A program made the position numbers and the translations under genes. From the NCBI GenBank assembly GCA_001920875.1, contig MNKP01000057.1, positions 1 through 37,922 on the forward strand: a stretch of 37,922 nucleotides of DNA, read 5' to 3'. The stretch is from Acidobacteria bacterium 13_1_20CM_2_55_15 (lineage in GTDB: Bacteria; Acidobacteriota; Terriglobia; 20CM-2-55-15). A model generated the notes under the pieces. That model was not told the DNA's origin. It saw only the letters and a program-made list of their open reading frames with translations, and ran no database searches. Below are positions 30,029 through 35,006 of this stretch, piece after piece. Each line of letters begins with the position of its first letter. Position 1 is the stretch's first letter.

Positions 30029-30128
30029 GCCCCACCGGAGACTAAGCTATTGTAGATGTAATGCGTAAGAACGTCAAGGGCTAGTGGGCTTGAACCCACG
30101 CGGGCCGCGGATTTGAGCTTTGTCCTAC

Positions 30129-31031
30129 ATGAAAATACGTAACCTGTTAGTAGTTCGAGCGTGTGCCATTGGTGATTTTGTTTTCAATCTGCCCGCACTT
30201 ACAGCTCTCGAAAGAACCCACGCGGATGCCCGATTCACTTTAGTCGGAAACGCGTCGGCTTTAGAACTTGCCAGAGAGTTCGTGGCCGTTAAGAAGATTT
30301 ATTCTATCGAGTCCCCGCCGTGGTCGCGATTGTTCTATGAGCCTGTTTCGGGACTGGAATTCGATTCCTCGATTGTCTGGATGAAAGATGAAACCATTGC
30401 CGGAAATCTGCGGCTTTCGGGAATACCCAACGTGATTCGACGTGATCCGTTTCCCCCACATGGGCACGCTGCGGATCACTTGCTCAGAACGCTGAATCTC
30501 GATCGGCCTCCTCTGCCGGACCTGTGGGCACCGGATTCGGACGATGTCGTCATTCATCCCGGCAGCGGCAGCCCGAAAAAGAATTGGCCGTACTTCGAGG
30601 AACTGGTGGATAGGCTGCCGAATGTCGTCGTGTTCGTGCCTCTCCCTCTGGGAGAGGCCGCGCGAAGCCGCGAAGCGCGAGCCCGAAAGGGCGAAGCCTC
30701 AAAAAAAGATGAGGGTTTCAGGTCTTCGTCAAACTTGTGGTCCTCACCCGGCACGTCAGCCTTGCGGCTGCCGCGCCGCCCTATGCTTCAAAATTTGTGC
30801 CTTCCTGAAGTCTTCCACCATCTCCGCCGCTGCCGTGCCTATATCGGCAACGACTCCGGCATCACGCACCTGGCCGCCTATCTCGGCTGTCCAACGATTG
30901 CGCTGTTCGGTCCGACGTATCCACGGGTATGGGGACCGATTGGCCGTCGCGCTCGGATTATCTGGAAGAGCAAACTTGAAGACATCACGGTCGATGAGGT
31001 GGTACAAAGTCTAGATGCAACGCACACCTGA
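30129..31031 (+). CDS. GT9-family glycosyltransferase (heptosyltransferase-like) with an in-frame repeat insert
   Basis: A GT9 enzyme, the family that adds heptose or related sugars to the lipopolysaccharide core. The N-terminal domain starts VVRACAIGDFVFNLPALTAL and the acceptor side continues to about residue 165. The nucleotide-sugar domain shows VIHPGSGSPKKNWPYFEEL (about 143-161) and DSGITHLAAYLGCPTIALFGPT (about 243-264). Between VVVFV and MLQNLCLPEVF lie about 49 residues (PLPLGEAARSREARARKGEA and beyond) encoded by palindromic repeat copy B; they interrupt the usual short loop and are of a composition foreign to the family. The frame is intact. ATG 30129 is preferred over TTG 30120. 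It overlaps the next gene by 17 bases. Confidence 0.88.
   Translation: MKIRNLLVVRACAIGDFVFNLPALTALERTHADARFTLVGNASALELAREFVAVKKIYSIESPPWSRLFYEPVSGLEFDSSIVWMKDETIAGNLRLSGIPNVIRRDPFPPHGHAADHLLRTLNLDRPPLPDLWAPDSDDVVIHPGSGSPKKNWPYFEELVDRLPNVVVFVPLPLGEAARSREARARKGEASKKDEGFRSSSNLWSSPGTSALRLPRRPMLQNLCLPEVFHHLRRCRAYIGNDSGITHLAAYLGCPTIALFGPTYPRVWGPIGRRARIIWKSKLEDITVDEVVQSLDATHT
30638..30782 (+). repeat. Palindromic element copy B, inside the glycosyltransferase frame
   Basis: It starts with the hairpin gcctctccctctgggagagg, continues ccgcgcgaagccgcgaagcg and gcgagcccgaaagggcgaag, then an A-tract and gatgaggg, and ends with cctcacccggcacgtcagcc and a second GC-rich hairpin to 30782. The first 79 bases match copy C (32625-32703, opposite strand) at all but about six positions. 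The last 41 bases match copy A on the reverse strand. Confidence 0.88.
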
Positions 31032-31704: not shown

Positions 31705-32616
31705 TTAGAGTCCGCGAACGATTTCGGAAATGCGCTGCGCCGCAAGACCGAATCGCGGTCCTGGGACGAGCAAGTAAGTTTCTCCTTCGATGTAGATGCG
31801 GTCTTCGACCAGCCCGAGCCGTTCCCAGTCCTTCTTGCGCTGAGCGGCCTCCCGCGCGTCGAGTGGAGGTGACAACGTTTCCAGGATGATATCGGGTTTC
31901 CGGCGGATCACCTCTTCCAAGCTGGGTTGAAAGGTCTCGACATCGACATCACCGAACAAGTTCACGCCGCCGGCGATTTCGATCAAATCATGCTGAAAGG
32001 CTCGCGAGCCGATACTGTAGAACGAGCCGAGAGTTCCGCCTGCGCGATCGTGAACCAGAAAGATTTTCGGTTTTTTCGCCGGCGCCGCCGCCCGTACATC
32101 CTCGAAAGATTTACGAATGGCGGCCACGAGCCGTTGGGCAGGATCCTCCGCCCCCACTTGCCGTCCCAAGTCCAAAATAAAACCCAACGTTTTCTCGACA
32201 TTTCCGTGTCTGAAAGGAAAGGCTTGAATTCCGAGGGACTGCAGCCGCTCATTGAGAACGTCCTGGCTGCCGTAAGTAATGACGAGATCCGGATGAAGTT
32301 CGATGATCTTCTCGATGTTGGGATTGATCAGGCCGCCGATTCTCGGTCTTTTTTCCACTTCAGGGGGAAAGTGATCGTAGTCACCGACCGCAACGACATT
32401 GCCGCCCACGCCTAGGGCAAACAAGGTCTCGGTCACGCTCGGCACAACGGAGATAATACGGCGCGGTGACTCGGAGGCCGGTGGCGGCGATTTGGCCGGC
32501 GAACAGGAGGCCAGAACCAGCGCAAACGCACAAAAAGTTGCGAGCCCGCGCGAAGCGCAAGCGCGATAGCGCGCAGCCTCAAGAAAGGGGAGAAGCCTAA
32601 AAGGCAGTTTAATCAA
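31705..32616 (-). CDS. btuF: Cobalamin-binding ABC transporter lipoprotein, BtuF-like
   Basis: A 303-residue periplasmic binding protein of the class III type that captures vitamin B12 or a related corrinoid for an ABC importer. The lipobox is LASC at about residues 36-39, followed by a low-complexity linker, then RRIISVVPSVTETLFALG, GGLINPNIEKIIELHPDLVI and the C-terminal lobe ending VPGPRFGLAAQRISEIVRGL. The leader is odd: MIKLPFRLLPF is followed by LEAARYRACASRG, encoded by palindromic element C, then the hydrophobic part ATFCAFALVLASC. It lies downstream of the receptor gene under the cobalamin riboswitch. No BtuC or BtuD is in the window. Confidence 0.87.
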   Translation of the reverse strand: MIKLPFRLLPFLEAARYRACASRGLATFCAFALVLASCSPAKSPPPASESPRRIISVVPSVTETLFALGVGGNVVAVGDYDHFPPEVEKRPRIGGLINPNIEKIIELHPDLVITYGSQDVLNERLQSLGIQAFPFRHGNVEKTLGFILDLGRQVGAEDPAQRLVAAIRKSFEDVRAAAPAKKPKIFLVHDRAGGTLGSFYSIGSRAFQHDLIEIAGGVNLFGDVDVETFQPSLEEVIRRKPDIILETLSPPLDAREAAQRKKDWERLGLVEDRIYIEGETYLLVPGPRFGLAAQRISEIVRGL

Positions 32617-32703
32617 ATCCTGTGACCCTCACTTTTTTTTGAGGCTTCGCCCTGACGGGCTCGCGCTTCGCGGCTTCGCGCGGCCTCTCCGAGGGGGAGA
32701 GGC
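32539..32703 (-). repeat. Palindromic element copy C, compound, at the btuB-btuF junction
   Basis: The right part (32625-32703) read on the minus strand is gcctctccccctcggagagg, then ccgcgcgaagccgcgaagcg, gcgagcccgtcagggcgaag, an A-tract and gtgaggg, a near copy of the start of copy B in the glycosyltransferase. The left part (32539-32585) is a further, shorter and inverted version (gcgagcccgcgcgaagcgca). The left part lies in the first codons of btuF and the right part ends six bases before the btuB stop. Confidence 0.85.
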
Positions 32704-32708
32704 ATCAA

Positions 32709-34817
32709 TCATTTCGATCGTCCCAAACGAATTCGCGTTCCGGCAACGAAGCTTCGCCGGAGAGACAAATAGCCGAGCACTTCCTGATAGTCCCGGTTGA
32801 AGATATTTTCCACTCTTATGTATGCCGATCCAAAACGCGCAAATTCATATGCCAAGGATCCGTCGGAAATGGAATAACCTGGATTACTCGTCAGCGGCAC
32901 GCGGTACGTGAAGAAATCACTGTCCGCGCGCCGGCCCACCGCTCGAGTAGACCACGATGCGCTCCATTTTCGATCAATCCAGCTTATGGCGATGTCTCCG
33001 GAATGACGCGGCCTTCGCAATAGCGGATCGCCCGGCCGGAATGGATAAAACTGCTGCGTGGATTCTTGTATGTGTCCATCGAGATATGTGTAGTTCGCCT
33101 GCACCAACATTTGCTTCACCCGCGCCCGCGTACGCAGTTCGGCGCCTCGCGCTAGACTGCGTCCGATGTTTTGATACACATTGAACTGGTCCGGCTCGAT
33201 GCGATTCCGAAATCGATTGTCGAACCACGCGAGATCTGCGGTAATCCGGTTTTTCCAGAACGATTGTTCCGCGCCGGCTTCCCAGCTTCTTGAACGCTCC
33301 GGAATCAAATCGGGATTCCCCTGGAAGAAACGGTTCGTGCTGAAGTTTTGAATGAAGCTGGGTTCTTTGATTCCTGTTCCCGCACTGAATCTCAGCCTCA
33401 GGTCCGGGCGCACGCGCATCGAAGCACCGAACCTCGGGTTTGCACTGACGCCGGACGTTGTGTTGTCTTCGATTCGGATTCCTCCGATCAGGTCGAGACG
33501 ATCCCAGGCGCGAACCTGCTGCTGTGCGTAATATCCCGTATTGTTACGAAGGTGCGGCACTCCCGCCACATTGGCGTCCTCCCGATCGAAATCGACGCCA
33601 TACGCGAAGGTGCTTCCGAGAGTGAGCGCCACGTCGCCGTGGTATTCGGCGCGATGACGCTTGTGCGCGATGTTTGAAACGCCGAAAGCGCTAAAGTAGT
33701 TGTAATCGTGATCGTAGTACCGATACGCCAGGTGCTGGGTAAGGCGAGACGAAACCAACGCGCTATACGTCACACCCGCAGCGCGCTCGAGGTTTTCGGC
33801 ATGATCGTTGGGACCAAACGATGTAAAGCCCGGCGCGTTGACGCCAGGCGTGCCGATTCTTGAAGAAACGTGGAAAAGAGTACCGCGGAATGTCTGCTTG
33901 GAATCGAGTGCGAATCCAAAATTCCCGAAGTAACTGGCGTTCCGGTAATCGTTGTTCGGTTGAATATTGTCGGTATCGAGCCGGCTGAACGTATTCGACC
34001 AATCCAGTCTCTTCCAGGCGCCGCGGAGCGCTGTGGACTGTTTCAGGGTTCCGTAGTTTCCGCCCTCAAGTGAATATTCGGCTTCGGGCGGCGCTGTTCC
34101 GCGAGTCGTGAACATCTGGACGATACCTGTAAGCGCGTCCGATCCGAACAGCGCGCTCTGCGGCCCGCGCACGACTTCAATCGTGCCGATGTTGTCGGCC
34201 GGCAGATATGCAAAATCATAGGTCCCGCCGGGCTGATTCACCGGAATTCCATCGACCAGGATTTTGGTGTAGTCCGAATTTCCGCCTCTCGTGAACAGCG
34301 TTGTAATGCCGCCGGCATTTCCTGTGCGGACGACTGCGAGGCCGCCGATATTTCTGAGCAGATCCGATGCAGTCTGAATATGTGAAGCTTCGATCCGGCT
34401 CCGGTCGATGACATCGACGCTCGAGCCAAGCGTGTTGGCCGGGGCGAGATTGCGTGTGGCCGTGACAACGACTTCCGCCTGGATCGGATGGATTTCGAGC
34501 ACAATGTCCTCGAGTCTGATCGGGTCTTCCAAGGCGATATCCGCTTCATAAGCGGAAAATGCTTCGGCAAAAATCTGAAGCCGATACTTGCCTGATCGAA
34601 GGCCACTCAGGTTGAAACATCCCTTATCGTCCGCTCGAGTTTGAAAACGCCCGGCTCCATCAGAACCGGTCAGGATGACTGCCGCACCCGGAATCGCTGC
34701 TCGGGTCGAATCCTGAACGCATCCTGTGATACTCGAAAGCTGACGTGCGGACAGAGGAGCGGAAACCGACAGTAAAAGTGAAATAGCGCAGACCCACGCC
34801 GGACGTGGGGTAAACAT
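32709..34817 (-). CDS. btuB: TonB-dependent outer-membrane receptor, vitamin B12-type (BtuB-like)
   Basis: A 702-residue outer-membrane receptor. After a signal peptide ending at about SARQ, residues 28-105 form a carboxypeptidase-like regulatory domain (GCVQDSTRAAIPGAAVILTG onward), which is typical of Bacteroidetes and acidobacterial receptors but not of enteric BtuB. The plug domain begins AEVVVTATRN (about 114) and contains LLRNIGGLAVVRTGN, KILVDGIPVN, DNIGTIEVVRGPQSALFGSDA and a barrel of about 22 strands follows. The B12 assignment rests on the riboswitch just upstream and the btuF-like gene downstream. The ribosome site gagggagagg lies at the end of the riboswitch leader. Confidence 0.9.
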   Translation of the reverse strand: MFTPRPAWVCAISLLLSVSAPLSARQLSSITGCVQDSTRAAIPGAAVILTGSDGAGRFQTRADDKGCFNLSGLRSGKYRLQIFAEAFSAYEADIALEDPIRLEDIVLEIHPIQAEVVVTATRNLAPANTLGSSVDVIDRSRIEASHIQTASDLLRNIGGLAVVRTGNAGGITTLFTRGGNSDYTKILVDGIPVNQPGGTYDFAYLPADNIGTIEVVRGPQSALFGSDALTGIVQMFTTRGTAPPEAEYSLEGGNYGTLKQSTALRGAWKRLDWSNTFSRLDTDNIQPNNDYRNASYFGNFGFALDSKQTFRGTLFHVSSRIGTPGVNAPGFTSFGPNDHAENLERAAGVTYSALVSSRLTQHLAYRYYDHDYNYFSAFGVSNIAHKRHRAEYHGDVALTLGSTFAYGVDFDREDANVAGVPHLRNNTGYYAQQQVRAWDRLDLIGGIRIEDNTTSGVSANPRFGASMRVRPDLRLRFSAGTGIKEPSFIQNFSTNRFFQGNPDLIPERSRSWEAGAEQSFWKNRITADLAWFDNRFRNRIEPDQFNVYQNIGRSLARGAELRTRARVKQMLVQANYTYLDGHIQESTQQFYPFRPGDPLLRRPRHSGDIAISWIDRKWSASWSTRAVGRRADSDFFTYRVPLTSNPGYSISDGSLAYEFARFGSAYIRVENIFNRDYQEVLGYLSLRRSFVAGTRIRLGRSK

Positions 34818-34842
34818 GGTGCCTCTCCCTCGAAAGGTTATT

Positions 34843-34990
34843 CCCCCGGGAGGTGTCCTGACTTGACGACCGAATTCGAAGTTCGCCTTCCCGCCAATCT
34901 GGCAGTGGCTCGTGCAAGGAGTGTCGTCTCACAGTTGCGGGGCAGTAGCGGATTTGAACCGCTTTCCCTCGCCGGAGTACGGTGAATTGT
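34843..34990 (-). promoter_or_regulatory. Cobalamin riboswitch
   Basis: Read on the minus strand the leader contains gagggaaagcggttcaaatc, then ctactgccccgcaactgtga, gagccactgccagattggcg, ggaaggcgaac, and the B12 box region gtcaagtcaggacacctccc. These are the conserved blocks of the adenosylcobalamin riboswitch: the GGGAA start, the CCCGCAACTGT segment, GCCACTG followed by GGGAAGG, and AGTCAGGA-ACC. It ends about 26 bases before the btuB ATG, close to the ribosome site, so ligand binding most likely blocks translation. A promoter -10 candidate gataat lies at 35006-35001. It predicts that btuB-btuF is switched off when B12 is abundant. Confidence 0.9.
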
Positions 34991-35006
34991 CGATGCGTAT
35001 ATTATC

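Follow-up and report, generated by a model that had tools for sequence, protein, structure and literature searches.

Rickettsia palindromic elements (RPEs) are described as dispersed palindromes of 105–146 bp that have become in-frame parts of genes for conserved proteins (PMC2229807; PMC10969869). The first of these reports a guanylate kinase with an RPE-type insert that is active and has a changed affinity for its substrate (PMC2229807). In the same source, the Yersinia MITE YPAL/RU-2 forms part of the signal peptide of YPO1552, which is presented as putatively exported and, by hypothesis, a new protein (PMC2229807). The kind of event considered here is therefore already known, both from the in-frame insertion of RPEs and from the MITE-derived signal peptide of YPO1552. 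REP/BIME and the GTAG/CGTC-tagged palindromes are likewise short and present in high copy number (PMC3733652).

The element analysed here resembles RPEs by description, in that both are dispersed palindromes lying in frame in conserved genes. Unlike the RPEs of those accounts, it occurs in Acidobacteriota, consists of a host palindrome with nested modules of about 36 bp, and putatively supplies a start codon as well. Unlike YPO1552 as described, BtuF is a transport protein that is conserved, and its leaders carry different palindromes in three genomes. REP elements are named for their extragenic position, whereas several of the acidobacterial copies are intragenic and in frame. The small dispersed repeats of cyanobacteria are reportedly, in the work of Elhai and co-workers, very short palindromes lying within other repeats, and our module is like them, by description, as a short nested palindromic unit; we know of no in-frame leader formation by these repeats. 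In the open-access literature, we found no account of an acidobacterial system, of an element-borne start, of one conserved leader replaced by different palindromes in sister species, or of nested palindromes or a MITE-derived lipoprotein leader matching the BtuF case.

The element at the btuB–btuF junction

The stretch of DNA analysed (the window, 37,922 nt) is contig C114 of a metagenome-assembled genome (MAG), hereafter G000, which comprises 3.44 Mb in 211 contigs and is 81.8% complete. The following genes and RNA surround the element:

31705..32616, minus strand: btuF, a Peripla_BP_2 substrate-binding lipoprotein of 303 aa (open reading frame and Pfam domain)
32709..34817, minus strand: btuB, a TonB-dependent receptor of 702 aa (open reading frame and domain match)
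34831..34991, minus strand: cobalamin riboswitch upstream of btuB (RF00174, 80.3 bits)

The order on the minus strand is cobalamin riboswitch, btuB and btuF. BtuF matches Peripla_BP_2 with 83.5 bits (cutoff 27.5), and the adjoining TonB-dependent receptor and cobalamin riboswitch place btuF in a B12 uptake context. Repeats are typical points of wrong joins, and this MAG is spread over 211 contigs; a misassembly that wrongly joined btuB to btuF at the repeat is nevertheless very improbable, as btuB and a glycosyltransferase-9 (GT9) gene adjoin btuF in genome G001, the GT9 gene and a methyltransferase gene adjoin it in genome G004, and the core of the leader runs straight on into the btuF frame.

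Between the two genes, comparison of repeats and copies resolves a composite structure:

32539..32703, minus strand: compound palindromic element, made of a host element and two inverted modules and truncated on the btuF side (repeat and copy comparison)
32684..32703, minus strand: terminal hairpin of the host element, of the CCTCTCC..GGAGAGG type, beginning 5 nt past the btuB stop (fold and copies)
32639..32672, plus strand: module copy 1, in the space between btuB and btuF, ahead of the TTG start (differs from the module consensus at 2 positions)
32549..32582, minus strand: module copy 2, within the BtuF reading frame, encoding LEAARYRACASR (0 mismatches to the module consensus)
32540..32608, minus strand: nested-module unit, a degenerate outer module whose loop holds module copy 2 (many copies in genome G003, 91–95%)

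The module, of about 36 bp (CTTGAGGCTGCGCGCTATCGCGCTTGCGCTTCGCG and variants), is placed in an arm of the host palindrome, for which comparison of copies gives the ends CCTCTCCC..GGGAGAGG and a short centre flanked by GTGAGGG..CCCTCAC. The inverted arms at 32549–32586 and 32635–32672 are 38 nt long, 82% complementary and 48 nt apart, and further arms of 15 nt (93%) lie at 32542–32556 and 32673–32687. On the btuF side, the element ends at 32540, at the start of the hydrophobic core, and the usual terminal hairpin is absent there; the left half of the element (query positions 1–98 of 165 bp) terminates just past the TTG. Several full copies, such as L043, L046 and L059, are by eye short elements with terminal inverted repeats, as in MITEs, and the copy in the window retains one terminal end only. 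The nested-module unit is also matched at 94% on contig C45 of G000.

A sequence-only reading of the window had placed two inverted repeat copies at 32539–32703, one filling the gap after btuB and the other providing codons of the BtuF leader. Our mapping agrees with it on each of these points: the copies lie where they were placed, module copy 1 occupies the gap, and the repeat-derived leader codons are exact (LEAARYRACASRG, spanning 32583 down to 32545). What that account missed is the TTG borne by the element, the Shine-Dalgarno-like motif and the nested composite structure.

Translation start and leader of btuF

Five features bear on how btuF is begun and how its product may be exported:

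32710..32712, minus strand: ATG overlapping the btuB stop, in the btuF frame, a probable former start (opens 27 codons including the ATG, then TGA)
32629..32631, minus strand: in-frame TGA supplied by the element, the last stop before conserved BtuF (frame reading)
32626..32632, minus strand: GTGAGGG, Shine-Dalgarno-like, at the element centre, 9 nt before the TTG (match to other centres)
32614..32616, minus strand: TTG; the btuF frame has no other ATG, GTG or TTG from its last stop codon to the lipobox (element-derived sequence)
32503..32544, minus strand: hydrophobic core and lipobox (LASC), LATFCAFALVLASC (lipobox assigned by inspection)

A TTG stands 9 nt past GTGAGGG in 7 of 17 oriented readings, that is, in 6 of the 9 other element centres (window copy excluded), indicating that both the btuF start and its Shine-Dalgarno-like motif are element sequence. 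From module copy 2 to the cysteine codon of the lipobox (32505–32503) there is no ATG, GTG or TTG, so the module is translated if BtuF is made. A start downstream of the repeat, which had been named as the result that would overturn the repeat-derived leader, is ruled out for these three codons. A CTG at 32607 is a possible start, but it lies upstream of the module; CTG codons also occur within the hydrophobic core.

The ATG overlapping the btuB stop still precedes BtuF in G001, and in the window it is severed from the gene by the TGA of the element. The earlier suggestion that the repeat may have replaced the original start is thus probably right. Replacement of the btuF start by the element would be the simplest history.

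Read from the TTG, the BtuF leader is MIKLPFRLLPFLEAARYRACASRGLATFCAFALVLASC. The best hydrophobic 9-mer (hydropathy sum 2.81) is the same with and without the module, while the n-part grows from 15 residues with a charge of +2 to 27 residues with a charge of +4 when the module is included. By inspection and hydropathy, the hydrophobic core and lipobox are intact, and the N-terminus is a candidate lipoprotein leader. The basic insert may alter export, as the earlier reading suggested.

These features could also be taken to mean that the insertion damaged btuF, so that BtuF is scarcely made, if at all, and the reading frame is heading to decay. The former ATG is lost, the start is a TTG, the leader is long, and in the minimum-energy fold GTGAGGG is partly paired in a stem, which speaks against easy initiation. 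Set against the unbroken reading frame of 303 codons, 55–63% identity to orthologues, the Pfam score given above and the intact core and lipobox, however, decay of btuF is distinctly unlikely.

Folding of the junction bears on a further alternative, in which the palindrome acts as RNA or DNA, its stem-loop tuning mRNA stability, termination or the coupling of btuB and btuF, and the leader codons are incidental. The element region is predicted to fold very stably as RNA (minimum-energy fold −87.2 kcal/mol, z −4.4), the btuF start codon sits at the centre of the palindrome, and similar palindromes in other bacteria are said to affect the mRNA next to them (PMC2229807). One arm lies in the coding frame, however, so that the protein is altered whatever the RNA does; moreover, the palindrome in the BtuF leader of G004 occurs without a btuB match in about 1.5 kb of upstream flank, so that the junction is not required. 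We regard a role as nucleic acid alone as unlikely, and favour the reading in which the element was inserted in frame and supplied the start and the first part of the leader of BtuF.

Copies of the element in the family and in other genes

The 165-bp stretch has at least 65 matches in G000 (BLAST, E ≤ 0.001), a lower bound obtained by scoring 40 of 186 first-look candidates. At least 59 matches are found in G003, 52 in G004, 51 in G005, 24 in G009, 21 in G002, 18 in G001 and 9 in G006, and none in G007, G008 or G010 among the matches listed, with candidates limited to 40 in most genomes. The element is matched in 8 of the 11 genomes of the family (7 of 10 besides G000) and is therefore a family-wide repeat.

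Scanning with a 34-base consensus (up to 7 mismatches) detects 16 modules in 270,676 bases of unselected G000 sequence (20 stretches, taken by contig number) and three more in the window; one mononucleotide shuffle contains none. The resulting density, 59 per Mb, corresponds to about 200 modules per G000 genome if they are evenly spread. Among 28 module copies (30 loci minus L072 and L083), 11 lie within a GTAG..CGGCGGTC palindrome and 3 are in tandem, as called with a loose pattern that leaves some cases, such as L070 and L077, doubtful. The ways in which copies are combined vary. At L071 (G000, contig C99, 1762–1868), three modules of about 36 bp follow each other head to tail with no spacers; at L087 and L088, a GTAGCGGCGGTC palindrome with perfect flanking stems of 15–16 bp carries a module in its loop, a palindrome inside a palindrome; and at L335–L344 in G003, one module occupies the loop of a second, an arrangement that recurs in many near-identical copies within a further palindrome.

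The window holds one more partial copy:

30637..30735, plus strand: the element's left half once more, inside the GT9 gene at 30120–31031 (module at 30669–30702)

This copy is in frame and adds about 40 residues to the protein. The codons of the insert are mostly missing in all seven orthologues matched on both sides of it, with gaps of 42 and 36 residues in two of the alignments.

In the unselected sequence, 5 of the 16 modules lie in frame in Pfam-supported open reading frames, namely those of a GT2 protein, UDG, PriA, a CbiA/GATase_3 protein and an amidohydrolase. This count leaves out modules in reading frames with no Pfam match, as well as one at the 5′ edge of an S30AE-type reading frame that probably begins further downstream. 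With 5 of 16 unselected modules intragenic, the repeat does not have the extragenic location of REP/BIME; palindromic, dispersed and in frame in conserved protein genes, it is of the RPE kind. The PriA copy (L213, 14711–14744) is a module inside another palindrome, in frame and separating the 3′BD domain from the helicase domain. In the CbiA/GATase_3 case (L218, 5766–5799), the element is in frame in the interval between the CbiA and GATase_3 domains. This gene, probably for a cobyrinate amidase, is likely to be a B12 gene like btuF.

Palindromes in BtuF leaders and a proposed history

A BtuF orthologue is present in 7 of the 11 family genomes searched, G000 included; no further orthologue with at least 50% identity appears in the best 80 of 187 contig-scan matches or in the search of the 11 family genomes. 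None of the six other btuF loci (2.2–3.9 kb) contains the module at up to 9 mismatches. Comparison with orthologues lacking the repeat, which had been proposed as a check, could accordingly be made with six genes, and the extension of the window is common to none of them. The BtuF leaders of G006, G009, G002 and G008 are short and palindrome-free by the arm rule. The leader of G001 holds a different palindrome, with 33-nt arms (94%), and that of G004 holds another, with 31-nt arms (97%). The cysteine is residue 38, 35 and 28 in the three palindrome-bearing leaders, with n-part charges of +4, +7 and +4, and residue 23, 23, 18 and 22 in the palindrome-free ones, with charges of +1, +1, +2 and +1. 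A shared ancestral extension of the leader is rejected, since 4 of the 6 other orthologues are short and palindrome-free and 2 of 6 carry other families.

Both additional palindromes are themselves repeats. The palindrome of the G001 leader has, both strands counted, at least 115 matches in G001, 115 in G002, 80 in G005, 48 in G004 and 2 in G000, with 0 in G003 among the matches listed; that of the G004 leader, counted likewise, has at least 79 in G004, 8 in G002, 3 in G005 and 1 in G003, with none in G000 or G001 among the matches listed. We abandoned a first idea of one genome per family, as the G001 family is also found in G002, G005, G004 and G000 and the family of the window in G001 and G004. 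Three BtuF leaders carry three different palindromes, though the families are shared among genomes.

As background, we took 396 open reading frames of 150 aa or more from stretches of G000, G001 and G004, of which 8 have such a palindrome in their first 45 codons. Starts here are those of the longest reading frames, whereas orthologue starts were assigned by us. Given the window, the probability that at least 2 of the 6 other orthologues have a leader palindrome is 0.006; doubling the background raises it to 0.022. Under a stricter palindrome rule, the background is 5 of 396 and the probability 0.002; the looser rule was adopted after the stricter one because the arms in the window are only 82% complementary. 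As a sign that signal peptides are a preferred site of palindromes, the value of 0.006, from one gene and seven orthologues, is suggestive and no more.

In the G004 BtuF leader, the 5′ arm gives NRNTRSTRGTR (charge +4) and the 3′ arm gives APLVLLVFLF (mean hydropathy 2.94); the 3′ arm of the G001 palindrome is barely hydrophobic (mean +0.42). Where its two complementary arms encode a basic n-region and a hydrophobic core respectively, a palindrome could be an almost ready-made signal peptide. A member of the G004 btuF leader family also provides MKTGGKRGRNARGTRSTRCSLLLLCFLCFLCSFPSYGQ, which forms the start of an M20/M28-type peptidase in G004 (L285, 1477–2778), and orthologues of this peptidase at seven loci in six other genomes have, by eye, ordinary-looking leaders, one with an uncertain start. 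We placed 39 palindrome copies near genes (19 in G004 and 20 in G001, both btuF copies included). That palindromes near gene starts are leaders in general is unsupported: of the eight with a long open frame that we read, one, L285, is a clear leader. The G004 palindromes near the starts of L116 (a pterin-binding enzyme) and L276 (RecG) do not look like leaders.

We propose the following history for the window. A MITE-like dispersed element would have inserted at the btuB–btuF junction, just past the ATG overlapping the btuB stop, placing a stop codon behind this former btuF start. The element centre, GTGAGGG-9 nt-TTG, would then have taken over as translation start, and element sequence with one module, open in the btuF frame, would be read as a long basic n-region, MIKLPFRLLPFLEAARYRACASRG, followed by the older hydrophobic core and lipobox. 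In this proposal, btuF survived because the element centre carries GTGAGGG and TTG and because the element sequence downstream is open in frame. Signal peptides tolerate very varied sequence. On the comparison of copies and orthologues, BtuF probably owes its start and the first part of its leader to an RPE-like palindromic element that was inserted in frame and tolerated, with the signal peptide as a permissive site; we infer the order of events, the use of the TTG, normal export and a near-neutral effect. The locus would belong to a wider pattern in these acidobacteria, in which conserved genes contain high-copy palindromes in frame and signal peptides offer them a permissive landing place.

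It is a tentative but real possibility, to which we give somewhat less than even weight, that this family has repeatedly drawn on dispersed palindromes as material for export leaders. Within one genus, three genomes would each have rebuilt the BtuF leader independently, from three different palindrome families, and the leader of the M20-type peptidase of G004 would have been rebuilt with the family of its btuF; some palindromes may also bring their own Shine-Dalgarno-like motif and TTG start.

If true, the BtuF leaders would be a natural, replicated case of dispersed palindromic DNA becoming part of a protein as well as a translation start in a conserved nutrient-uptake gene. The link between the mobility of repeats and the tolerance of signal peptides for varied sequence could then be tested. 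The in-frame insertion of palindromes, for which Rickettsia offers the best descriptions, would extend to Acidobacteriota, with priA among the recipients.
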